Below the pieces are notes generated by a model, which ran no database searches, had not been told where the DNA came from, and worked only from the letters and a program-made list of their open reading frames with translations. Below are positions 2,069-39,926 of a DNA stretch of 43,245 nucleotides, one piece after another. Both the position numbers and the translations under genes were made by a program. Positions within the stretch are counted from its first letter, which is position 1. Every line of letters begins with the position of its first letter. The DNA is taken from positions 1-43,245 of the IMG/VR virus record IMGVR_UViG_3300031772_000073, one strand, 5' to 3'. The DNA is from a virus.

Positions 2069-4576
2069 CTATGGAGTGGGTATCGTATAGGTCCATTCAT
2101 CAAAATCCAATAAATCACCCGCATCGAAGAGGACGTTACTTATATTGTTCAGTGCTCCGTAGTCATATCCCGCAGATCCTGCCGGCGCAACAGTATAAGA
2201 ATTATGAGCCATTTTTATGAGTGTTCCGCTGGAACGAATAGCCGGAGCTAAATTCGCAGCACTCATGATGCAATGTAGTATTTTTGCATAAGCACAACCG
2301 GAAGCATTTGTGATGACTGCCTTGGTGGTTACATTGGGGCTGTCTGCCTGGAATTCCGAGTTAAGTATTTTAAATTTACCGGTGCCAACCACCACACCAA
2401 TTTCAGCAGTTGAATTATCACCGCTGGCCCTCATATAACAATTTTTGATTAATAGTTTCGAAGGGCCGAGAGTGTAAAATGCTCTATCACCCGCTGCAAT
2501 TGAATTGTTGATGAAAGCACAATTTCTCACCTCCAAATACTCGTTCTTATTTGTAGGAGCGCCAGCATAATGGAACGGGTCATAACCGCTCGAACTATTA
2601 ATAATCCGCAACCCTTCCATCAAAATTATATTTTGCCAGTCACCAAGAGCCGTATCATTATTAATGCTGCCGTATAAAACAGCACCAAAACTACGGAACA
2701 TGAGAAATGCCTTGCCAACGGTTGACACTCTTTCCACATACACTCCGGGCATTATCCATATCTCATATTTATTGGGAACCCCCGAAGCATAATCCGGGAC
2801 GCTATTAACCGCCGCTTGAATTGTTTGATAAGCCGTTCCATTCTTAGCGACAACTCTGGTATATTCCCAATCGATGTTTGATAAGGATAAACTGGTTATC
2901 CGTTCACCAATCGTAGCAAAACCGGCCCGTGCATCGCCGATTTCCGTTTCCGCTTCCATGATTGCCTTATTCTTTCCGGATGCCTCCATGCTTATGCTCA
3001 TTCGATCATTCAAGGTTGGAGCACTACCCCGCGCGGTTTTTAATTCGGTAATGTATGTTTCGATGTTTCCGAGATATTTTTTCGCGATTGTCGGGGTAAT
3101 CGAAATCGGCGTTACGCAATGCCGGCCCGCTTTATCCACCGCCCGGAGTTTCGCCTTAACGGTGATGTTTGTAAGGTCCGTCGAATGCTTCGAAGGAATG
3201 ACGATCGCTTTTCGATCCGTAAAAACTTTTTTATGTCCGAGGGTATCAAAATCTGGGTCCGACCCATCATCCGTCCACACGATCTCCAAACCAGCCACGT
3301 CGTTGACGTATGTATTCTCAATATCCCAGGAAATACGAACACCATCATCCTCAGCTGTAACAACTACGTCCTTGACCGTACTCGCGCAATTATCAGGAAT
3401 CACTTTCGTTCCGCCGGCCGTGATCGTTTGTGCTGCGGAGAATGCCGACCACTCGTCCTGGAACCAACCACCCCGGCTGGCCACCTTTATAGAATATTTA
3501 ATATCCGGCGTCAAACCATGCCAGATATATTCCATCTTTACCGGCGATTCCGCAGCGGATGCCTCTGCTTCTATCGTTCCCTGAACAGTATCATCGGTAG
3601 GATCCAAGATTTGCAACATAAATTTATAACCGGCGGCCAGCGGGCCCAACCAGAAAATACCGGTCACCGGTACGGCAGCCGCCTCGAGGGTCAACGTATT
3701 GGATGTATTGGAAACGACTTTCCATGAATTGCCGTCGGAGCAGGTTAAATAGTAGTTGGCCCATTCGTTCGTCGTCCAGTTACCGATCCGGTTTGTAACC
3801 CAGGCGAATGTATTTCCCGTAGCGTTCCCTGAACCCTGGTCTCCGAAGATGATTTTGATATAAGCCGGCCGCACGCTCAGCAAGCCGGCCGCTTCACCGT
3901 TCTTGCGATATATTTGATCCCAGCCGGTTGACAGCGTTAACCGGGTCGGGACCGGCGGCGCAAATTGTTTGACCAATACTTTTCTTCCCGTGCCGGCTGG
4001 ACCGCCCACATAGAAGTCCGAATCCGGGGTATAATTAGGCCAGCATTCCGGATTGAATTTTAAATATAACCGGTAATCATTGGTCACTACCAGCTGACCG
4101 GATACCTTCGCCACCCGGGCCAGTTTGATTTCACTGATCGACTGGATGTATTGCGATTCTTTGGTCGCGCCCAGTTCAAAGGAATCCACCTTCCATACGG
4201 TATAAGGCTGCCCTGTGATGTAGTGATTCCGCACCGCATTAGGATCGCTCGAATCGATCAGTTTATATTTGAGCCAGATGATATTCGCTTCAGTTTCGAC
4301 GTCCGTCAAATTGACCGTCTGGACCGCAGAGATCAAAACCTTCTCACCCTGGACATACGCCGCACCCGCCTTCACCTTGCAAATTAAAAACTGAGCCGGA
4401 TCATCGATGTAAACTTGGATCTCGTCACTAACTCCCTTTAAAATTCCGGAACCGCCGATCGCGTTACCGGTCAGATCCAAAATATGATCTTTGATCGCGG
4501 CTTCTTTAGCATCCCGCTCAAAATGAAAATCTTCCTTCGAAGGTTTCAAACCCGAAAAATGTTCCAAATGTTTCAT
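2069..4576 (-). CDS. Tail fibre / baseplate protein (DUF4815-like N-terminus, beta-helix C-terminus)
   Basis: 835 residues, the largest virion protein here. The first ~170 residues resemble the DUF4815-type domain that anchors fibre proteins to the baseplate. The middle (about 200-500) contains fibronectin-III-like beta-sandwich stretches. The C-terminus (from about residue 575) has a pectin-lyase-like beginning, YQTIQAAVNSVPDY then EIWIMPGVYVERV, followed by repeated short beta strands typical of a right-handed beta-helix. That layout fits a host-recognition fibre with possible glycan binding or depolymerase activity, though no catalytic residues can be named. A strong GAGGAGG ribosome site precedes the start, which overlaps the upstream stop as ATGA. 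Confidence 0.8.
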   Translation of the reverse strand: MKHLEHFSGLKPSKEDFHFERDAKEAAIKDHILDLTGNAIGGSGILKGVSDEIQVYIDDPAQFLICKVKAGAAYVQGEKVLISAVQTVNLTDVETEANIIWLKYKLIDSSDPNAVRNHYITGQPYTVWKVDSFELGATKESQYIQSISEIKLARVAKVSGQLVVTNDYRLYLKFNPECWPNYTPDSDFYVGGPAGTGRKVLVKQFAPPVPTRLTLSTGWDQIYRKNGEAAGLLSVRPAYIKIIFGDQGSGNATGNTFAWVTNRIGNWTTNEWANYYLTCSDGNSWKVVSNTSNTLTLEAAAVPVTGIFWLGPLAAGYKFMLQILDPTDDTVQGTIEAEASAAESPVKMEYIWHGLTPDIKYSIKVASRGGWFQDEWSAFSAAQTITAGGTKVIPDNCASTVKDVVVTAEDDGVRISWDIENTYVNDVAGLEIVWTDDGSDPDFDTLGHKKVFTDRKAIVIPSKHSTDLTNITVKAKLRAVDKAGRHCVTPISITPTIAKKYLGNIETYITELKTARGSAPTLNDRMSISMEASGKNKAIMEAETEIGDARAGFATIGERITSLSLSNIDWEYTRVVAKNGTAYQTIQAAVNSVPDYASGVPNKYEIWIMPGVYVERVSTVGKAFLMFRSFGAVLYGSINNDTALGDWQNIILMEGLRIINSSSGYDPFHYAGAPTNKNEYLEVRNCAFINNSIAAGDRAFYTLGPSKLLIKNCYMRASGDNSTAEIGVVVGTGKFKILNSEFQADSPNVTTKAVITNASGCAYAKILHCIMSAANLAPAIRSSGTLIKMAHNSYTVAPAGSAGYDYGALNNISNVLFDAGDLLDFDEWTYTIPTP

Positions 4577-15187: not shown

Positions 15188-15579
15188 TGCGCGCTCCGGA
15201 TCAAAAGCCTGAGCACCCGCATCCCGCGCAGCGGCATCTCGACCGTTTCCTTGACTTCATACTCGAGTCCCCGGATCACCAGGATATCCTGGACGTGGAC
15301 GTCAGTCGCATCCGGGACGTGGACATACGCGTCCGCGGTCTTGCCGGCGCCGAAGATCTCCTGCAAAGTTTTTTCCGTGACGTTCCAAAAAACCTTGCCC
15401 CGGAAATTCAGCACCAGATATTCGTTTTCGCCTTCCTTCACGACTTCGCCGAAATCGGAATCGTAGGATTCCGGCGGCACCGACGTTTTGAGCCGCCGGC
15501 GCGTGATGAGTTCGCCGGAGCCTTCGATGATCTCCTGCGAATTTGCCTTGACGAAATCGAAGTCGTCTTTGATCATCAT
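15184..15579 (-). CDS. Head-closure-like neck protein
   Basis: 131 residues, mostly beta: FDFVKANSQEIIEGSGELITRRR, LVLNFRGKVFWNV, DIFGAG-type turn, and DVHVQDILVIRGLEYEVKE near the end, reminiscent of SPP1 gp16-type stopper folds. It overlaps both neighbours by four bases. Named only from position between adaptor-like and completion genes and from fold-like pattern, so moderate confidence. Confidence 0.45.
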   Translation of the reverse strand: MMIKDDFDFVKANSQEIIEGSGELITRRRLKTSVPPESYDSDFGEVVKEGENEYLVLNFRGKVFWNVTEKTLQEIFGAGKTADAYVHVPDATDVHVQDILVIRGLEYEVKETVEMPLRGMRVLRLLIRSAQ

Positions 15580-17546: not shown

Positions 17547-17897
17547 TTATCGTCTCACGATGATCTGCCACCAGTAGGATTTATTCGTATCCGTAACTGC
17601 CGTGGTGGTTAGGATCACGCTCGAATCGTCGAGCACGCTGGCCGTCAAGAAACCGGCCGTCGCCGTTCCGGTTATAAAAACCGCTGTGCTTTCCCCGTCC
17701 ACGGTGAAACCCCGGGCTTTGGAAAAGATCAACGTATCCGCCTGGTGCAGGTCGTTGAACCGGTTCCGGTCAAAATAGATCGTAGTTCCCGGAACCGCGC
17801 TGAACTTATTGTAGGTAGGTGTCGTCACGCTGAGCACGTCCGCACTAACTACCTGGAGCGCGATCACCATGAGGAACATAATAAAGATTTTTTTCAT
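17547..17897 (-). CDS. Exported small beta protein between decoration and capsid genes
   Basis: 116 residues. The start is a clear Sec signal peptide (MKKIFIMFLMVIALQVVSA, probable cleavage after SA at about 19). The mature part is all-beta (TTIYFDRNRFNDLHQADTLI... DDSSVILTTTAVTDTNKSYW). CCAGGAGATAACG gives a good ribosome site. A secreted protein inside the capsid cluster is unusual; it belongs with the other exported proteins at 25.4-28.9 kb as a possible host-surface factor. Confidence 0.65.
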   Translation of the reverse strand: MKKIFIMFLMVIALQVVSADVLSVTTPTYNKFSAVPGTTIYFDRNRFNDLHQADTLIFSKARGFTVDGESTAVFITGTATAGFLTASVLDDSSVILTTTAVTDTNKSYWWQIIVRR

Positions 17898-23014: not shown

Positions 23015-23529
23015 TTGGTCACCGCCGGTTCTGCAACGCGACGCTCCGCTTCCGGCTTGCTTAGTTCCTTGTTGATCGTGGCCACGATCTCGTCCTTGTA
23101 TTTATCGAGGACGATTCCGATTTTGGGATGATCGAAAAGCACTTTTAAAACCTTGTCCAGGACGTCGCCGACCTTGAGCTCCTTATTCGACGGTTGCAAC
23201 CTCAGGATCAGATTCGTCAGTTGCATGTAGGCTGCGACCGCGCCTTCCTTGGTCCGGAAAATACCGCCTTCCTTGAGTTCCGCGAGCACCTGCTTATGCA
23301 GGTCCACGGCTGAGTCATAAATCTTGGTCAGCATTTCGCCCGCTTTCTCATCGTTCTGATCTTTCACGTCCTCGAGGATCTTGTCCCGACGGGCTTCCCA
23401 GCCTTCGTTCCGCTTCCATTTCAGGAGCGTCTTCTTATTAACTTTCGTCTCCTCCCGGATCTCGTCGAAGCTCGCGCCCTGGACGTACAGCTGAAACGCT
23501 TTTTCTTTTACGTCGACGGGATAGCTCAT
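23011..23529 (-). CDS. terS: Terminase small subunit candidate
   Basis: 172 residues from ATG at 23527-23529, which overlaps the amidase stop (ATGA). The N-terminal ~50 residues are a helix-turn-helix (YVQGASFDEIREETKVNKKT followed by LLKWKRNEGWEARRD), the DNA-binding part. The rest is helical and fits an oligomerisation core. Position directly before terL supports it. It would recognise phage DNA near one end to start packaging. Confidence 0.8.
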   Translation of the reverse strand: MSYPVDVKEKAFQLYVQGASFDEIREETKVNKKTLLKWKRNEGWEARRDKILEDVKDQNDEKAGEMLTKIYDSAVDLHKQVLAELKEGGIFRTKEGAVAAYMQLTNLILRLQPSNKELKVGDVLDKVLKVLFDHPKIGIVLDKYKDEIVATINKELSKPEAERRVAEPAVTK

Positions 23530-24131
23530 CGGCTGAATCCCCAATGATTGACGGCCTGGACCAGGGCCTTGGCCATGTTGTCCAGGATCACCTCGTTGTC
23601 GTACCACAGCTCGTCCATGGGATTCGAAATGAAGCCGCCTTCGAACAGACAGCCGGGCACAAGATTCGTATTGATCAAAATGGCGAAACCGCCCGGGTAT
23701 TTATCGGTCTTCGGGTAGATCTCGAAATCGCTCCGGATACAATTAACCGGATCCGGTCGGATATCCGGGACGGTCTTTAATTCTTCGGCCAGCATTTGCG
23801 CGAGTTTCTTGCTGTCGCAGGACGGGTCATGGAACCAGACCGACCAGCCCCGGGCCTTATTAGACGACACGGCGTTGCGGTGCAGGGAAAAGAAGAGATC
23901 CGGCTGCCACTCGAGGATCCGGTTGCCCAGGGCCTTGAACGGCTCGCCGACGCCCTGCTCGAAAATCTTGACCTCGTAGCCCACCTGGAGCAGCCGGCTG
24001 CAGACGAAACCGCCGAAGCGGTTGTTGTCGCTTTCCTCCCGGCTGTATCGGAAATCATTCGTCTTGGCATCGATGCCGTCGATGGCGCCCGGATCGGTCG
24101 GCGTATGCCCGATGTTGATCGCGATCTTCAT
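23526..24131 (-). CDS. Endolysin: N-acetylmuramoyl-L-alanine amidase (Amidase_3)
   Basis: 201 residues, the size of the bare catalytic domain. Zinc ligands are visible: H9 (NIGHT), E33 (SREES) and H84 (FSLHRNA), plus catalytic E164 (CLFEGGFISNP). It cleaves the bond between muramic acid and the peptide stem. No signal peptide or cell-wall binding domain, so export must depend on a holin. It sits directly beside the putative holin genes, forming the lysis cassette, and overlaps both neighbours by four bases. Confidence 0.9.
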   Translation of the reverse strand: MKIAINIGHTPTDPGAIDGIDAKTNDFRYSREESDNNRFGGFVCSRLLQVGYEVKIFEQGVGEPFKALGNRILEWQPDLFFSLHRNAVSSNKARGWSVWFHDPSCDSKKLAQMLAEELKTVPDIRPDPVNCIRSDFEIYPKTDKYPGGFAILINTNLVPGCLFEGGFISNPMDELWYDNEVILDNMAKALVQAVNHWGFSR

Positions 24132-24917: not shown

Positions 24918-25381
24918 AAATTCTCCTCCTCCGCGTTTCTCAATGAATCCAGGTATATGCGGTCTTGTAACTCCAGGTATTTCATCCGCAGGGTATTGTT
25001 CTCCATCGTCGCCTGTAATTTTTTTTGCTGACGCCGATTCCAGAGCGGTACGCGGATCCCGAATTCCGCGAGTTTTAAAACTGAATAGATCGCCCAGCCG
25101 TTACGCGCCAGGTCGTTTTCTCGCGGCGTCGAATAATGCCGGCGGATTAATGTGGTATTGAAAATTATCAAGTCGGATACGTTCGCGATTAAAAAGGCAG
25201 CCACGTAGCGCTTGGCCGGATGCATATTCGGCCACAGGTAATCGATCGGGATCTTCGCAGTCTCAAAAACCGATTCGGTCGTGAGCATCGGCAGCGAGAA
25301 ATGCGCGAACTCTCCGGATGTTTCCGGCATTGTAAACCCGCCCCAGTTGGTGATTAATAAAAATGAAATTAAAATTATCAT
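24914..25381 (-). CDS. Membrane protein near the lysis cassette, possible spanin-like role
   Basis: 155 residues. A hydrophobic N-terminus (MIILISFLLITNWGGF) and a second apolar stretch (YVAAFLIANVSDLIIF) frame a soluble loop; the C-terminal third is a charged helix (RRQQKKLQATMENNTLRMKY). Gram-negative phages need spanins near endolysin and holin, and a membrane anchor plus helix would suit that. The evidence is position and topology only; overlaps on both sides show co-translation. Confidence 0.45.
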   Translation of the reverse strand: MIILISFLLITNWGGFTMPETSGEFAHFSLPMLTTESVFETAKIPIDYLWPNMHPAKRYVAAFLIANVSDLIIFNTTLIRRHYSTPRENDLARNGWAIYSVLKLAEFGIRVPLWNRRQQKKLQATMENNTLRMKYLELQDRIYLDSLRNAEEENL

Positions 25382-26730
25382 GGTTGATCAATGCTCCAAA
25401 CCGCGCCGGAAATCGTGCCATTGTTGCCAACACCGGAACTATCGCTAGCGACAACTCCATTAAATTCATTCAACTTATACCAAAGTTTTAATGAATCCGT
25501 TGTCATCGGTCTGACATTATTATATAGTCTTTTAATTTGAGCACTCGTTAAAGCAATTTTAAATATCATTGGGTTGCTAATATAGCCAATCATATAGCTC
25601 GATGGATTGCTGTTGGAACCAACATAACAATTCCCCGCCGATGTTATTACCGTTCCACTTAGTGGTATTGCGTTTACGCTATCGCCATCAACGTATTGTT
25701 TAATGTTAATTCCATCATAAGTTAAAGCACCCATATACCACTTCCCGGAAACAATGTTTTGTCCAACTAAAGCTCCTGACGATGTGTTTGTCCAAACTTT
25801 AATCTCGAATTTGTTTACTGACTGCCATCTTAAATAAAATTGTCTATTTGAACCAACATCATCGTTAGCCATCAATTCACAAGTTCCCGATCCTGGAACT
25901 GCATCAAATTTAAACCAACATAATGCAGTCATGGCGTTTGCACCATCCAACATATCCATTGCACCACAATTTATTGCAGTAGTTAATCCGTCGAACTTCA
26001 AAGAACTCCCATGATTCGTTTTCCCCATCGCTACCGGCGTATCGATGTTCCAGGTCGCACCCGATATCGTGCCGTTATTTGCATTGCCGCTTGAGTCTCC
26101 GGCGACCGTGCCGGTAAATTCGGATAACGGTAGCCAGAGTTTCAAAGAATCGGTAGAGTAGATTTTTTCGGGATGATTGTAGAGAAAACTTATTCCAGTT
26201 GCAGTTAGAGTTCTTGTGTATAATTGAACCCCCCCTATCCAACCATTCATATATCGAGTTGCTTCGCCACCAATGACAGTAACAACTCCGGTAGAGTCTA
26301 TGTTTTTATTTTCTCCAGTAGGATCAGCTGTGCATACCAATATACCATCGAGATAAAGATTTTCTCCAGTTGCATTATCTCTATCTACAACAAAAATTAT
26401 ATTATGCCACCTACTATCTATAATTGTATTTGTCGAGCAAGTTACAGCAACGCCATCTGTATTGTCTCTTATTTGGCACATATATTTATTATTAAAAATC
26501 CCAACACCTATTGTCATATTCGTTCCGCTTGTTCGAAGGAACACTCTTTTTGTATTGCTTTGTGTCCATCCAATAGGAATTTTTGCCCATAGATTGATTG
26601 AAAAATCTTTTATTCCAACTAAACCAACATTACTAAAACTTGAAATATTGTCATTTGTTCCATCAAAATACAAACTGCTCCCATGCCCCCATATCAGAAT
26701 CGGTATAATGACAAGCAATAAGCGTTTCAT
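25378..26730 (-). CDS. Exported protein with two LamG/concanavalin-like domains
   Basis: 450 residues. A Sec signal peptide (MKRLLLVIIPILIWGHG) is followed by two tandem LamG-like jelly-roll domains at about 18-215 and 245-445. Both carry the typical SLxFDG start, an FSINLWAKI / ALCWFKF strand, GxW(H/Y) segments, and an end of the form LKLW...DSSG..NNGTISGA.W.ID. The same end unit occurs in the next gene, so the set arose by duplication. LamG domains bind glycans or proteins. The gene is AT-rich compared with its neighbours. It would be secreted by the host, so a role at the cell surface is more likely than one in the virion. Confidence 0.8.
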   Translation of the reverse strand: MKRLLLVIIPILIWGHGSSLYFDGTNDNISSFSNVGLVGIKDFSINLWAKIPIGWTQSNTKRVFLRTSGTNMTIGVGIFNNKYMCQIRDNTDGVAVTCSTNTIIDSRWHNIIFVVDRDNATGENLYLDGILVCTADPTGENKNIDSTGVVTVIGGEATRYMNGWIGGVQLYTRTLTATGISFLYNHPEKIYSTDSLKLWLPLSEFTGTVAGDSSGNANNGTISGATWNIDTPVAMGKTNHGSSLKFDGLTTAINCGAMDMLDGANAMTALCWFKFDAVPGSGTCELMANDDVGSNRQFYLRWQSVNKFEIKVWTNTSSGALVGQNIVSGKWYMGALTYDGINIKQYVDGDSVNAIPLSGTVITSAGNCYVGSNSNPSSYMIGYISNPMIFKIALTSAQIKRLYNNVRPMTTDSLKLWYKLNEFNGVVASDSSGVGNNGTISGAVWSIDQP

Positions 26731-27435
26731 CTATTTTTCCTTTCCGGAAATGACGGGGGTATCGAAAGACCATATGCCGGATGTAATCCATCCGTTATTG
26801 CTGTTCCCGGATGAATCAGCAACAGAAGTTCCAGTATATTCATCTAATTTTAACCAGATTTTTAATGAGTCAGTATTCTTTGGTCGTAAATTCATAAATG
26901 AATAAATTATTTCGGCTTTTGTTATTGCTCTTCGATAAAATCTTATCTCATCCATATACCCTTCATATTGTCCAAACTTCCATACGCTATTATTACCAAT
27001 ACGACCAACAGTAAAAGCGGTTTTGCTATCGTAAACGGTGTCTATATATACTCTTAAACTATCTCCACGGGTAGCGGTTATTACAAAGTGATGCCACCTT
27101 GAATCTCCGCAAGATTTAACACTCGAAATTGTATTTTCAACCGCGTTGCTGTCTCGTACGAAAAAATTCATCTTACCATTTGTTAAAACGTAATTCATAA
27201 ATCCTTGGTCTAACCCGCCAGTTGCTCTTTTAAAACTAAACGCTCTGTTCGCCGGAGGATTGGTGTATTTCGCCCAACATTCCCACGACCAGCTTACGGA
27301 ATCTAAATCTACACCAGCGTTATGATTAACCTGTATGACGGAAGATGTTGATTTAAATAACTCACTGCTCCCGTGTGTCGCTTTACCCTGACCGAAAATC
27401 AGGAGCGGAATTAAGAGAATTAGGAGTTTTCTCAT
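26731..27435 (-). CDS. Exported protein with one LamG-like domain
   Basis: 234 residues: signal peptide MRKLLILLIPLLIFGQG, then one LamG-type domain with SWSWECWAKY, SFKRATGGLDQGFMNY, SRWHHFVITATRGDSLRVY and GYMDEIRFYRRAITKAEI. The C-terminus (LKIWLKLDEYTGTSVADSS then GNSNNGWITSGIW) is homologous to the two units of the following gene. The stop abuts the next start. It is a sister gene of the two-domain protein and low in GC. Confidence 0.78.
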   Translation of the reverse strand: MRKLLILLIPLLIFGQGKATHGSSELFKSTSSVIQVNHNAGVDLDSVSWSWECWAKYTNPPANRAFSFKRATGGLDQGFMNYVLTNGKMNFFVRDSNAVENTISSVKSCGDSRWHHFVITATRGDSLRVYIDTVYDSKTAFTVGRIGNNSVWKFGQYEGYMDEIRFYRRAITKAEIIYSFMNLRPKNTDSLKIWLKLDEYTGTSVADSSGNSNNGWITSGIWSFDTPVISGKEK

Positions 27436-28403
27436 GGTTTGGTTTTCCTTGTGTGGGTGTAGCCTTCAGTTCGACCCTTAAGAGTATCAAGAACGTTGCA
27501 ATAAACAAACAGAGTGTTAACTGCTACACGCTCAGTCAACGGGAATAGCGGCAAGGTCGCACCGTACCAGGCTGGAGAAAACCGATCCGTCGCGGTGACG
27601 CCAACGATAACGGTTGTGTCGATTATTCGTGTTCCACCAAAGGTTTCTGTTCCCCAACAATCACCCATAAGTGATCCGGGTTTTAATCCACTCGTATCCG
27701 CACCGGAAAAAATCATAAAACTTGGATTCTTTCCTGCGACGGTAGTTGAACAAATATAGGCTTTGCCATATGGTGCCGGTAGAGATCCCAATGAACTCGA
27801 TGTTGAATCGTTGGTTACCGGTTTAGTCTGATCAAGTAACATCCAGCCAGGCTTGAATAAAACGCTGGCCTGTGCCAAGTTCAAAAAATAGGATCCCTTT
27901 TTCGAAACGATGTAAACCGTGTCGTTGGAAATCCGAAAATACACCGTATCCACCGCGCTCGCAAATCCCAGGGAATCGACCAAAGTCTTGTGCGTGAATT
28001 TCTGCAGATCTGAATTGAACTGCGCCGTATCACCGACCGTCCCGATCACGGTCTTCCCATTGGCCGGAAAAATGGTATCAATCTTCATCCGCCGTCCCTG
28101 TTCGACCACCACATCACCGCCGCCGAGATTAATCTGCGTGCTCAGGATCGTGAGCGGTGAAAAACTAACGATAGAATCCACCGCGAGTTTATGAAAAAAT
28201 GCGGAGTCCACTTTATACACCCGGGATCCGATGATCAAGAAATATCCTTGATCCGCCGTGACTGTATCGAAAATATAGGATCCGCTATTACTTTTCGGCA
28301 GCTGTACCTTGCCGAAATCAAACGGCGCCGGCGTATAACTCCCGGCCGCGAACGCCGCATTTGCAATCACCAGGGCCGCGATGATCAGGATTAGTCGTTT
28401 CAT
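27432..28403 (-). CDS. Exported protein of unknown function
   Basis: 323 residues from the ATG at 28401-28403, chosen for its TAAGGAGC ribosome site. The start MKRLILIIAALVIANAAFAA is a textbook Sec signal peptide. The mature part is mostly beta, with GYFLIIGSRVYKVDSAFFHK, repeated Thr/Val/Asp strands, and no recognised domain. The first half is GC-richer than the LamG genes; the second half is AT-richer. It lies in a run of four exported proteins at the start of the late operon. Confidence 0.7.
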   Translation of the reverse strand: MKRLILIIAALVIANAAFAAGSYTPAPFDFGKVQLPKSNSGSYIFDTVTADQGYFLIIGSRVYKVDSAFFHKLAVDSIVSFSPLTILSTQINLGGGDVVVEQGRRMKIDTIFPANGKTVIGTVGDTAQFNSDLQKFTHKTLVDSLGFASAVDTVYFRISNDTVYIVSKKGSYFLNLAQASVLFKPGWMLLDQTKPVTNDSTSSSLGSLPAPYGKAYICSTTVAGKNPSFMIFSGADTSGLKPGSLMGDCWGTETFGGTRIIDTTVIVGVTATDRFSPAWYGATLPLFPLTERVAVNTLFVYCNVLDTLKGRTEGYTHTRKTKP

Positions 28404-28413
28404 GGCTTGCTCC

Positions 28414-28875
28414 TTAATCATCCGGCAGATCCGGCTGCCACATCGACCAGAGGAATAACTTGACCCAGAGCCGGGCCCGGTTGCCGTGCAGGGTCGCGCT
28501 GGATTTTATGACGACGCGCAGATAACGGTTCGCCACCGGAAAAATCGTGGATGAATGCGCCAGCGTATCGCTCAGCCGGAAGATCGTGTTGCCGGCTTCG
28601 TTACCCAGGGTATCGGACGGCATGAAAAATGAATCGCTAAGCGCGTTCTTGGTCAAAAAATAAACGCGGTAGTTCGTGGAGTCCGCCGGATTGGTTGTCT
28701 TGACCGTGATGCCCGGGTACGGCCAGTGGCCGATCCAGATCGTACCGCTTACCAGGGTCGTATTCTTTTTCAGGGTATCACCGTTCCAGAGCGCGGTCAC
28801 GCCCGGCGCGTCGATTACGCTTTCGGCCACACCCAGGACCGTCAATGCCAGGACCAGAAAAATCATCCGCTTCAT
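28414..28875 (-). CDS. Exported protein of unknown function, first gene of the late operon
   Basis: 153 residues: signal peptide MKRMIFLVLALTVLGVAES, then a small beta domain with LWNGDTLKKNTTLVSGTIWI and NRYLRVVIKSSATLHGNRAR near the end, which recalls beta-sandwich adhesin-type folds without naming one. GCAAAGGAGACTTAA precedes the ATG. It is the first gene after the terminator and probable late promoter at 28.9-29.05 kb. Confidence 0.68.
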   Translation of the reverse strand: MKRMIFLVLALTVLGVAESVIDAPGVTALWNGDTLKKNTTLVSGTIWIGHWPYPGITVKTTNPADSTNYRVYFLTKNALSDSFFMPSDTLGNEAGNTIFRLSDTLAHSSTIFPVANRYLRVVIKSSATLHGNRARLWVKLFLWSMWQPDLPDD

Positions 28876-28896: not shown

Positions 28897-28937
28897 AAAT
28901 AAGGACCCGGCCGAGAGTCATTGATACCGGCCGGGTC
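28897..28937 (-). terminator. Intrinsic terminator between early and late operons
   Basis: GACCCGGCCG (28904-28913) pairs perfectly with CGGCCGGGTC (28928-28937) around a 14-base loop. On the minus strand it is followed by CTTATTTTTGC, a T-rich tract. Read on the plus strand it is followed by TTTGTGCTTT, so it may work both ways. It lies just downstream of the likely late promoter, so the late operon must read through it or be regulated here. Confidence 0.72.
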
Positions 28938-29013
28938 TTTGTGCTTTAGGGGGGTTATTTTGGGATTACATAAGTCCTCCCAGGTTAAGTTTAATGTCCG
29001 CAATCCTTGTCTC

Positions 29014-29043
29014 ATTATATAAAACTGTAAGATGTGTTTCCAA
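29014..29043 (-). promoter_or_regulatory. Probable late promoter
   Basis: On the minus strand a perfect -10 TATAAT (29014-29019) lies 18 bases from the weak -35 TTGGAA (29038-29043). A stronger-looking TTGACA at 29046-29051 is too far away at 26 bases. A good -10 with a poor -35 is the pattern of activator-dependent promoters such as Mu Pm and the late promoters. It would drive the exported, lysis, head and tail genes. Confidence 0.6.
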
Positions 29044-29056
29044 GTTGTCAAGGATT

Positions 29057-29066
29057 AAATGCATTT
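29057..29066. promoter_or_regulatory. Palindrome upstream of the late promoter, possible activator site
   Basis: AAATGCATTT is a perfect 10-base palindrome, centred about 55 bases upstream of the expected late start and touching the MuF stop codon. An activator binding there could compensate for the weak -35. The assignment is only by position. Confidence 0.3.
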
Positions 29067-29872
29067 TAAATCACCCGCGGCGCATAATCACGGCGCCAGA
29101 TCTCGCTCCCAATTACGATGATCTCCTGGCCGATCACGATTACCGCCTCGATATCGCATTCGCAGTTCGGATGAAACGGAATCCGCGGCGCGTCCTTGAT
29201 GTTATAGACGTTGCCGATGTGCGGACCGCAGATCGGGCAGCCGGGATTCTTGCCGATCACCCGGACCCACTCCACGCCGGCCTGGTTGTAATACGCCCGG
29301 CGACCCTCGGTATGCGCCCGGGCCAACTCGGTCCGCGCGATCATATCCGCCCGTTCTGTTACCTTGTCGAATACGCCCTTGGGTAACCCCTCATTGACCA
29401 GCCGCTTGGCGAGTTCCGGTACGCCTTCGCCCTGGATGATCCCGAGCCGGATCTGCGACTTGATCATCTGGCGCACGTCTTCGCCCAAGCCCGTGATTTG
29501 ATCGTAGGTATAATCCTGGACGAACGCCAGCGCCGGCTTGTCGATGAGCGGAAATTGCCGGTAGATCCCCAGCTGATCCATACCGTCCCGGACACCCGTT
29601 TCAAAGATTCTCACGAGCGGCAGCGTTTCCAGCATCTGCTTGGCGAGCGGCGGGACCGTGACCAGAAGCTTGCCCGACGGCAGCCGCTTGCGCTCGCCGT
29701 CGATCAGCCGGTCGACCTCTGCCACCGCGCTGCGCATCCATTTAAGTTTTTTCGTTTCGGCGGCCGGCAGTTCTGTGATCTTTTCCAGCATTCGGCGTCG
29801 CGTATCGGCCAGGACGCGTCGCAGGTCGCGGTAACTTTTTTCAGTTAGGAATTTTAAATCAGTTCCGGCCAT
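29066..29872 (-). CDS. MuF-like minor head protein (Mu gpF / SPP1 gp7 family)
   Basis: 268 residues from ATG at 29870-29872; a longer frame covers the previous gene and has no family match. The C-terminal MuF domain is clear: ADMIARTELARAHTEGRR, VRVIGKNPGCPICGPHIG, and RIPFHPNCECDIEAV, with CxxC and HPNC(x)C metal-type residues. The N-terminal part is helical. MuF proteins are normally next to the portal and are packed into the head; here the gene is 8 kb away at the end of the early operon, before the early/late terminator. Confidence 0.85.
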   Translation of the reverse strand: MAGTDLKFLTEKSYRDLRRVLADTRRRMLEKITELPAAETKKLKWMRSAVAEVDRLIDGERKRLPSGKLLVTVPPLAKQMLETLPLVRIFETGVRDGMDQLGIYRQFPLIDKPALAFVQDYTYDQITGLGEDVRQMIKSQIRLGIIQGEGVPELAKRLVNEGLPKGVFDKVTERADMIARTELARAHTEGRRAYYNQAGVEWVRVIGKNPGCPICGPHIGNVYNIKDAPRIPFHPNCECDIEAVIVIGQEIIVIGSEIWRRDYAPRVI

Positions 29873-31806: not shown

Positions 31807-32733
31807 CTATGCCCCCTTTCCGGCGCGCTGCGCCACCAGGTCTTCCAGCGCCTCGTTCAATTTAAATTCGTTCGGCTTGCCGGGATACTGGCCGGCCAGC
31901 ATCATCGTCACCGCGCTCCGGGAATAACCGGCCGCGTCGGCCAGTTCCTTGTGGGTGATCCCGTACTGATCCATCTGGGTCCGGATATTCTTAGTCCAGA
32001 TTTCCTTGCACATCTCGGCCGTGATTTTTTTCTCGCCCACGCTTTCACAGATCTCGGCCAACTGGGAAATGATCGACGCGATCCGCAGCGGATTGTGGAG
32101 TTTCCGGCAGATGATCCTGACCGCCGGCGGATCGATCTTGACGTCCTCCCAGCCGGCCACCCACTCGCAGTAATGCTCCGCCTCGCTGTCCGTGAAGCGT
32201 GGCATTTCGATCTTCCGGGTACGCAAATTGATCTCCGGCACGGTCCGCAGTTTCTCGTACAGCTCCGGTTGGGCTACGAGGATGATCGAAAGCAGCCCCA
32301 TCCGGCGGCCGAAGCCCAGCTCCAGCACCCGCTTCAGCGCCCGGAGCGTTTCCCGGCCCAGGGCGTGCGCTTCGTCGATCATCACGCAGATCGGCTTGTC
32401 CTCCTGGGTCTTAACGCCCAGTATCCGGCGCAGCTGCTCGGTCCGCGCCTCGATGTACCGCCGCGGGTCCTCCCCGAAGTGCCGGATGATCACGGCCATG
32501 ATCCCGCCGACCCGCAGCAGTTCCTTTTCCGGCTGGCTGATCCAGATCACGTGGACGCCGGCCTCCTCGATCGTGCCCATCGCGTTATAGACCGCGGTCG
32601 ACTTGCCGACGCCGACTTCGCCGATGATCGCCGTGATCGATCCCGGGTGCATGACCGCGCGCTCGCACGCCTGCGCGATCTGCCGCAGGGCTTTCGTCTC
32701 GAACATTTTTTCCGGATAAGTTACTCGAAACAT
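31807..32733 (-). CDS. MuB-like transposition ATPase with C-terminal helix-turn-helix
   Basis: 308 residues of the AAA+ target-DNA activator family. Walker A GEVGVGKST (38-46) and Walker B ICVMIDEAH (115-123) are intact, with an arginine-rich patch (FGRRMGL) after the second beta strand. Residues 258-284 (GITHKELADAAGYSRSAVTM then MLAGQYPG) form a Cro/XRE-like helix-turn-helix, at the opposite end from where Mu B has it. It follows the transposase gene by 21 bases, as in Mu A-B. It captures target DNA and stimulates the transposase. Confidence 0.88.
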   Translation of the reverse strand: MFRVTYPEKMFETKALRQIAQACERAVMHPGSITAIIGEVGVGKSTAVYNAMGTIEEAGVHVIWISQPEKELLRVGGIMAVIIRHFGEDPRRYIEARTEQLRRILGVKTQEDKPICVMIDEAHALGRETLRALKRVLELGFGRRMGLLSIILVAQPELYEKLRTVPEINLRTRKIEMPRFTDSEAEHYCEWVAGWEDVKIDPPAVRIICRKLHNPLRIASIISQLAEICESVGEKKITAEMCKEIWTKNIRTQMDQYGITHKELADAAGYSRSAVTMMLAGQYPGKPNEFKLNEALEDLVAQRAGKGA

Positions 32734-32754: not shown

Positions 32755-34410
32755 CTAAAGCGCCCCGTCTAAATCCCCCGGCGTGTCGCCCGGGAACTCC
32801 TCTTCCACAAACATTATTTCCTTGATCCGGGCGCAGACTTCCCGGACGATATCCCCTGGAACAGTGCCATCCGTCTCCGACGCCTGGGATGTTAGAACCT
32901 CTTGAATAAGAGATTGCGTGGACTCCGGCAGCTGCCCCAGGGGAATTCCGATCTCCTGGCTGATTTTCATTTTCGCCTCGGTGATGGTTAGTTTTTGGTC
33001 TGCGGCTGGCGCCCCGCCCTGCGCCTTCACCTGGTCTACACTCACCGGCTCCGGGTGCACCTTGTCGGACTGCCGGCTGTAATACTGGCCGGGAGTTTTA
33101 CTGATTCCCTCGTCGTCGATGATCCGCTGCAGTTCGTCCTTTTCCTTTTCCCAGAACGTCTTCTGCGGCCGCTCGAAGTCCTGGCCCATCACGTTTGCTT
33201 TGACGCCTTCCTCGAGCGGACCCATGTAGCCGACGAACGGATGATGGATCCAGACCCGGCCGTCGACGTTGATAAACACGTCCACCTGCTCGCCGCATAG
33301 ATCCGACACACCCACCCAGTACGGCTTGCCGCCGTGATAGATACATAGTTCCGGATGGACGCGCCGCTGTGTCTCGTGCGCCGCGGTCAGGTTCATAAAG
33401 ATCTCGCGCGGCGGGCAGCTGCGCAGGTCTTCAGGATGGATCTCCAGCCACTTTTCGAACCGGGTCTTGACGTCGCCCCGGCGCTTCTTGTTGTTCTCGT
33501 CGACGGAAAATTCGAAAAGCCAGCGGTTAAAATCGTCCAGAGAAGGCCAGTCCCGTTCGTTAATCCGGGTTCGGATCAATCCTTCCAGTTTCTGGGTCTG
33601 CTGAACGCTTTTTTCCGCCATGCCGGTGGCGCGCGCGTTACCCGGCATGTGCAAGTGCAGTTCGATGCCGAGCCGCGCCAGGAGCGCCCGGAAATGCCCG
33701 GATTTGAACGGCGAGCCCTGGTCCACGTACAGGTTCCAGGGCAGGCCGTGCATCGGGAAATCCGCGCCTTTCTTTTCGAACGCCCGGTACAGGAAGTCGG
33801 TCGCGATCAACGTGTTCTCGCCCAGGGCCTCGAACGCAAACCAGTATTTCGCGGTCGAAAACATTTCCACGTACGTGCCCAGGATGATCTTCTGCTTCGG
33901 CTCTTTTTTGGAATGATACTTGAGGTTGCGGAAATGCACGCGCATGTTTTTCAGGTAAAAGCATTGCGCCACCGTAAAGTCCGCCTGGCCCCACGTATTC
34001 GGGCCCGGCGTAGTCAGACGAACGCACGGGCGGGCCATGCGCAGGTGCCTTTCGTCGACCCCCAGGGTCCGCGCGATCTCATCGACCCGGGCCCGGTTGA
34101 TTTTTTTCCCCGGTTCGCGGCCGGCGATCATCTCGCGCAGCCGGACTTCCGCGATCGCCATCTCGGTCGAGATCCTTTGGTGCTTCAGGCCCCGGCTCTT
34201 ATATTTTAAGACCAGCACCTTTTGCGCCGCCGCTTTATCGGCATCCGTCAGGCGGACCGTCTTCGGTCGGCGCTCATATTTTTGCAGGGCGCGGTAAACC
34301 GTCGCCGCGCTCACCTTGTAGGCGATGCTCGTCTGCCGGATCAGTTGCGTCCGATCCTTTTTAAAAGGACTGTTGGAGATTTCCCGCAGATTTTCTTGAG
34401 GGATCTTCAT
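32755..34410 (-). CDS. MuA-like DDE transposase
   Basis: 551 residues, somewhat shorter than Mu A. Residues 1-130 contain DNA-binding helices (TSIAYKVSAATVYRALQKY; ARTLGVDERHLRMARP). The catalytic core has D144 (WGQADFT), D230 (LYVDQGSPFKS) and E266 (ATGMAEKSVQQT), with exactly 35 residues between the second D and the E, the DD(35)E spacing. The beta-barrel Mu-C part follows (about 350-420), and the tail is long and acidic, as in forms that bind MuB/ClpX. It cuts the phage ends and joins them to target DNA. Confidence 0.93.
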   Translation of the reverse strand: MKIPQENLREISNSPFKKDRTQLIRQTSIAYKVSAATVYRALQKYERRPKTVRLTDADKAAAQKVLVLKYKSRGLKHQRISTEMAIAEVRLREMIAGREPGKKINRARVDEIARTLGVDERHLRMARPCVRLTTPGPNTWGQADFTVAQCFYLKNMRVHFRNLKYHSKKEPKQKIILGTYVEMFSTAKYWFAFEALGENTLIATDFLYRAFEKKGADFPMHGLPWNLYVDQGSPFKSGHFRALLARLGIELHLHMPGNARATGMAEKSVQQTQKLEGLIRTRINERDWPSLDDFNRWLFEFSVDENNKKRRGDVKTRFEKWLEIHPEDLRSCPPREIFMNLTAAHETQRRVHPELCIYHGGKPYWVGVSDLCGEQVDVFINVDGRVWIHHPFVGYMGPLEEGVKANVMGQDFERPQKTFWEKEKDELQRIIDDEGISKTPGQYYSRQSDKVHPEPVSVDQVKAQGGAPAADQKLTITEAKMKISQEIGIPLGQLPESTQSLIQEVLTSQASETDGTVPGDIVREVCARIKEIMFVEEEFPGDTPGDLDGAL

Positions 34411-39257: not shown

Positions 39258-39926
39258 ATGCGGTTTTTATATGTCGTTCCTGTTTTTATGCTCTTGTGTT
39301 TGACCTGCCGGCAGTCAATCAAAGAAGGTGATCTAAAACTTGAAATCTTGATGTACTGGAACAATGGTGATGTTGATGATGTGGCAATTACCGACATTTC
39401 CCTTAATGGTAAAACAGCAAAAGTATCCGCCTCTTTAGTTTTTTTAAATGATACTCTGAGAGAATTAATCTACACTTTTGAACGATTTAAGAAAAGCTGG
39501 AAAGTAGTGGATGGTCCGGGAGACAACATGATGCGCATGGCTCTTTCTTCCTACATCAAAGACACCAAACGTAGTGTGTTAAAAAACAATATGCATACTT
39601 TTCAGCTCGCATTGGAGGATTTTTGCACTCTGGCAAACGGCAAATATCCCGCAGACTTAACTGTTACTATTAAAGAAGCATACCCGGACTGTAAATCCTT
39701 CGATTCTTCAACCGTTCTAAAATTACTTCCTTCCCATTTTCTTAATCCGTACGATCGAAACGATCTTGCCGTCTGCTCGTCTAAAAATAAATATTTTGCC
39801 TGGTCGATAGACTGCATTGGTAAGGTTGTTTATATCCCACGGAACTTAAACGGGAAAACTGCTGGGGGTTATATTATCAAAGGAGCGACCGATGAAGGTT
39901 TTTCATCATTGGTCTTGTCTTTTTAA
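39258..39926 (+). CDS. Lipoprotein with a pseudopilin-like region
   Basis: 222 residues. The start MRFLYVVPVFMLLCLTCRQS is a lipoprotein signal with cysteine after LLCLT, to be lipidated in the envelope. The C-terminal section with NNMHTFQLALEDFCTLANGK, then PADL and KLLPSHFLNPYDRND resembles the globular part of GspG-type pseudopilins (YP...NPY). AAGGAGGAAAA precedes the ATG, 12 bases after the repressor. Likely a prophage-encoded surface protein. Confidence 0.7.
   Translation: MRFLYVVPVFMLLCLTCRQSIKEGDLKLEILMYWNNGDVDDVAITDISLNGKTAKVSASLVFLNDTLRELIYTFERFKKSWKVVDGPGDNMMRMALSSYIKDTKRSVLKNNMHTFQLALEDFCTLANGKYPADLTVTIKEAYPDCKSFDSSTVLKLLPSHFLNPYDRNDLAVCSSKNKYFAWSIDCIGKVVYIPRNLNGKTAGGYIIKGATDEGFSSLVLSF

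Follow-up and report, generated by a model that had tools for sequence, protein, structure and literature searches.

A block of four putatively exported proteins, two of them LamG-like, in an exchange slot ahead of the lysis genes of a Mu-like phage

Results

Four-gene block at the head of the late operon

A tight string of four intact genes, E1-E2-LG2-LG3, was found at 28875-25378 on the minus strand of the window (the whole analysed stretch of DNA, 43,245 bp, which is an IMG/VR virus record). The late operon begins with a conserved promoter-like element; the block lies 3' of this element and 5' of the lysis genes (Table 1). We consider it slightly more probable than even that the block is an exported accessory cassette and no virion part, on the basis of the four signal-type N termini, the LamG folds, the late position, the rapid exchange and the foreign GC of the LamG genes. 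The first-pass annotation had described four consecutive genes of exported type at the start of this operon, and these were recovered with signal-type N termini in all four.

Table 1. Positions of the block, its boundaries and the reference genes in the window.
Feature	Position	Strand	Description
E1	28414-28875	minus	153 aa; signal peptide MKRMIFLVLALTVLGVA|E; no known family
E2	27432-28403	minus	323 aa; signal peptide MKRLILIIAALVIANAAFA|A; no known family
LG2	26731-27435	minus	234 aa; signal peptide, then one LamG unit (core and C-terminal DSSGN.NNG segment)
LG3	25378-26730	minus	450 aa; signal peptide, then two LamG units, aa 16-239 and 240-450
Late-promoter-like element, left slot boundary	29014-29052	minus	25-nt CTTGACANCTTGGAAACNNATCTTA at 29052-29028 and TATAAT -10-like hexamer at 29019-29014
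Leader	28904-28980	minus	Shine-Dalgarno sequence and start-stop codon pair GGAGGACTTATGTAA at 28980-28966; hairpin 28937-28904
Right exchange junction	25378-25409	minus	LG3 3' end ...GAVWSIDQP and stop, common to L006 about 700-731
Amidase endolysin	23526-24131	minus	
MuF-type head protein	29066-29872	minus	
MuB	31807-32733	minus	
MuA	32755-34410	minus	
Fifth exported small protein	17547-17897	minus	no known family; head gene cluster beside capsid gene, outside slot

The open reading frame of E2 covers 27432-28421, and its Shine-Dalgarno-supported start is the ATG at 28403. Overlaps of 4 bases were found between E2 and LG2 and between LG3 and the next gene, whereas LG3 starts immediately after the end of LG2. 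No convincing terminator was found between LG3 and the lysis genes. Neither E1 nor E2 had relatives in the viral contigs or in the annotated phages, and the AF2 model of E1 (pLDDT 36.5) was unusable for fold.

The gene set of the window is Mu-like with a contractile tail. In addition to the genes in Table 1, the minus strand encodes the terminase large subunit (TerL), the portal, the major capsid protein, the tail sheath, the tape measure and a baseplate J-type protein. Behind the baseplate genes, where tail-fibre genes are usually found, is a gene of 835 aa (2069-4576) that matches a tail protein weakly, and therefore adsorption need not depend on the LamG proteins. The Rfam search of the window gave no match.

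Export signals

The signal peptides were called with a home-made score, based on the charge of the n-region, the hydrophobic core, the cleavage site and the absence of a second TM segment, and not with SignalP. By this score all four block proteins qualified as Sec-exported: each has two basic residues, a core with a mean Kyte-Doolittle value of 3.1-3.7 over 9 residues and no second TM segment. The plausible cleavage sites were GVA|E in E1, AFA|A in E2 and GxG in LG2 and LG3. The occurrence of GxG instead of AxA in the two LamG proteins counts against the export reading.

Signal-type N termini were present in about 6 of the 52 window genes, as counted by reading the N-terminus table with the TM-anchor types at 15576, 24720 and 31084 left out. 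These are the four block genes, the small protein at 17547-17897 and a lipoprotein-like gene at 39258. Given this frequency, the chance of a run of four signal-type genes was about P = 0.0025. The protein at 17547-17897 has a clear signal peptide and is conserved in three related records, L003, L004 and L006. The gene of the lipoprotein-like exported protein (39258-39926, plus strand) is immediately preceded by a divergent HTH gene of repressor type, and its product is a candidate for lysogenic conversion or exclusion.

None of the 26 other LamG matches in viral contigs, some of which are near-copies of one another, had a signal-type N terminus, and export is thus an unusual and specific feature here rather than a habit of the LamG family. 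The LamG proteins of annotated phages are mostly called structural, virion or hypothetical proteins, and several of those in cyanophages are called structural. By title or abstract, the open-access literature searched yielded no paper in which phage LamG proteins are exported.

LamG units and their base composition

Both LamG genes exceeded the gathering cut-off of PF13385 (Laminin_G_3; 27.6 bits). LG2 matched with one unit (61.3 bits, E = 1.6e-16) and LG3 with two stretches (116.3 bits, E = 1.7e-33), in agreement with the three LamG-like units in two genes that had been described from the sequence. The sequence of LG3 had no match in the PDB. Structure prediction, carried out for LG2, resulted in a LamG/ConA jellyroll of moderate confidence (AF2 pTM 0.71, mean pLDDT 65). 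Foldseek matches of this model were ConA/LamG-like folds, the best one in the PDB being 4dqa, a putative carbohydrate-binding protein of Bacteroides ovatus (E = 1.4e-7). The best fold matches aligned over more than 210 columns, which is nearly the whole chain with the C-terminal DSSG segment included; each LamG unit, core and C-terminal segment together, is therefore probably a single complete domain, as judged from the model. LG2 also matched phrog_8510, 'virion structural protein' (5.9e-9). Relatedness to clostridial neurotoxin receptor-binding proteins was rejected, the Pfam match being below the cut-off and the Foldseek matches reflecting generic ConA-like fold similarity. A fimbrial TafC identity (NCBIfam) was rejected as well, with 37 bits against a cut-off of 410 and only the LamG part covered.

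Across 14 aligned viral LamG units, the residues D, S, G and N in the DSSG..N motif hardly varied, and the same C-terminal ending was found in unrelated viral LamG proteins (for example, in L007, L019 and L021). By these alignments the DSSG..NNG motif is a hallmark of the viral LamG family, and the shared ending alone is no evidence of duplication. The ending on which a duplication within the phage had been proposed is indeed shared by the window units, but it does not serve as proof. The identity of the other two window units to the second unit of LG3 was 28 and 33%. In the tree, the three window units grouped together with a support of 90/92 on long branches, which allows an old duplication. 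A duplication within the phage is thus only moderately supported by the sequences and, if real, would be old.

The LamG genes were correctly noted as strongly AT-rich: LG2 and LG3 both have a GC content of 38.7% in comparison with 53.8 ± 3.9% in the other genes (z = -3.9; z of GC3 about -4). The GC content of E1 was normal and that of E2 slightly low. These values support a foreign composition of LG2 and LG3. Within LG3, the linker (26002-26154) has 53% GC, whereas the LamG cores (26155-26673 and 25504-26001) have 34-37%; this contrast has no clear counterpart in LG2 and hints at a core exchange between conserved joints in LG3.

Exchange of the slot contents among relatives

Only four relatives of the window TerL were found in the viral contigs: L003 (84% identity), L004 (77%), L005 (67%) and L006 (99%). 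An alignment-based scan with TerL and a scan with MuA recovered the same contigs and no further ones; alignment scans of bacterial genomes with TerL and MuA found no relative, and TerL had no match among annotated phages. The phage group is represented by five available records, several of which are fragments.

LamG, E1 and E2 were absent from all four relatives, and a search for the same four-gene block beside the lysis genes accordingly found it in none of them. The slots of L003 and L004 carry phrog_644, other proteins and a minor-tail-type protein, phrog_13352 (2.8e-42), with no evident signal peptides. The slot of L005 is nearly empty. L006 has a fragment of LRR-like type there, together with a small TM protein; this record begins at the contig end and the remainder of its slot lies outside it. 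A fixed slot with varying contents, the mark of a plasticity region of Mu-like phages, was thus observed, with two other kinds of cargo and one near-empty slot among the four relatives. From these comparisons, the slot is an exchange site with differing cargo. Since its contents vary even among the few known relatives, the block looks like a swappable cassette and not a fixed part of the virus. The defined four-gene phage module suggested in the first-pass annotation was not borne out, given this variation, the absence of the block from all four relatives and the lack of viral relatives of E1 and E2.

The window and L006 are collinear with 91.7% identity over 13.9 kb from 25409 onward, and have no similarity before 25409. 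At 417-731, L006 has a small membrane-protein ORF whose C-terminal residues, GAVWSIDQP, are encoded by the nine final codons of LG3, and the similarity starts exactly at this tail. This tail appears to be an in-frame recombination scar of a cassette replacement. The simplest reading of the two sequences is that L006 or its ancestor formerly had a LamG gene and that the slot was later replaced.

Promoter-like element and leader

The exact 25-nt element occurs once in the window, just behind MuF, and in none of 100 shuffles. L003 and L004 have two copies each, flanking the slot cargo: the cargo lies between two direct copies at 5756-8321 of L003 and at 2460-5264 of L004, suggesting that its insertion was accompanied by a promoter duplication.

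The order of element, Shine-Dalgarno sequence, ATG directly abutting a stop codon, and hairpin was found in the window (28904-29052), L003 (8297-8480) and L004 (5240-5420). The start-stop pair is ATGTAA or ATGTAG, and the hairpin sequences differ among the three phages. By sequence and fold, the hairpin of the window leader is a strong terminator-type structure, GC-rich, of 10 bp and followed by a U tract. Possibly the leader acts as an attenuator for the late operon. It precedes the lysis genes in L003 and L004, where the cargo is on its 5' side, whereas the cargo of the window is on its 3' side.

Discussion

Other explanations of the block were weighed against an exported cassette. In the main rival reading, the LamG proteins, possibly with E1 and E2, would be accessory proteins of the tail or head surface which bind glycans at adsorption, either retaining the hydrophobic N terminus or being added to the virions after lysis. 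The minor-tail-type phrog_13352 protein and the lack of signal peptides in the L003 and L004 slots agree with this, as do the phrog_8510 match of LG2, the frequent annotation of cyanophage LamG matches as structural, and the rapid turnover of the slot, which suits receptor-binding genes. It is opposed by the run of four signal-type N termini, a feature seen in none of the 26 viral LamG matches, and by the fact that Mu-like virions are assembled in the cytoplasm. We regard virion adhesins as possible, though rather unlikely.

The foreign GC of the LamG genes and the absence of the block from close relatives would also suit lysogenic-conversion morons, that is, surface proteins which alter host adhesion or exclude other phages in the prophage state. 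The cargo of L003 and L004 is even placed as that of a moron might be, between two promoter-element copies and 5' of the terminator leader. The window cargo, on the other hand, lies 3' of the terminator hairpin and runs on into the lysis genes, no convincing terminator following LG3, so that late expression is the simplest assumption. In comparison with the marks of morons used in PMC4378225, unlike composition and absence in relatives were both found, the former only for the LamG pair because the GC of E1 is normal; an own promoter and terminator were not found, the promoter element being common to the lysis genes. Altogether, a moron seems improbable. That the genes are passengers or are decaying, gained by recombination and of no current use, is very improbable: E1 and E2 have no relatives found, the block is not conserved and L006 has seemingly lost its LamG gene, but the four ORFs are intact and tightly coupled and have an export signal in common.

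If the exported cassette is the right reading, the plasticity slot of this Mu-like phage, which follows the late promoter and immediately precedes the lysis genes, would supply four soluble Sec-exported proteins, two of them LamG proteins of ConA-like fold. These would be exported from the cytoplasm in late infection and bind glycans on the host surface or outside the cell. With these glycans occupied, neither fresh virions nor rival phages would adsorb to the dying cell or to cell debris. In view of the late expression and the fast turnover, such masking is the job that we prefer for the proteins, although only tentatively; assistance in the release from exopolysaccharide is the next alternative. 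The sequence does not separate the three roles named in the first-pass annotation, receptor masking, exopolysaccharide binding and adhesion. The block might then be part of a lysis-stage secretome, a speculative picture in which swappable exported lectins, made just before lysis, coat the host glycans and spare the progeny from loss on the producing cell, debris and exopolysaccharide.

Slots of accessory genes are known from Mu-like phages as the regions of genomic plasticity of the D3112/B3-like phages of P. aeruginosa (PMC4378225). The common features are a Mu-like core and defined accessory slots that vary between close relatives. The accessory ORFs of those phages are mostly 34-100 codons long (PMC4378225), in contrast to the window cargo of four exported-type proteins, two with LamG units, behind a late promoter. 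With the viral LamG/ConA-like jellyrolls (cyanophage structural proteins, phrog_8510, PF13385) LG2 and LG3 share the fold and the layout of a core with a C-terminal DSSGN.NNG segment; they differ from the 26 viral-contig matches in having signal peptides and adjoining lysis genes. Llp of T5 is an exported phage protein that blocks adsorption (PMC9586334). As an exported phage protein of the envelope it resembles the block, but the analogy is functional only: Llp is a small, early lipoprotein directed to a protein receptor, whereas the window proteins are larger, soluble, apparently late and lectin-like. The combination seen here, an exported LamG set in a Mu-like slot, was not found in the literature searched.

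LamG proteins are common in viruses, and those with an annotation are often regarded as parts of the virion; the two of the window have export signals, and their genes occupy a slot that is exchanged between nearly identical phages. The boundaries of the slot, with the 25-nt promoter element on one side and the lysis genes on the other, give a simple handle for collecting such cargo. If the proteins are secreted in late infection, they would make up a class of soluble surface proteins that act late and are distinct from the early lipoprotein exclusion factors.
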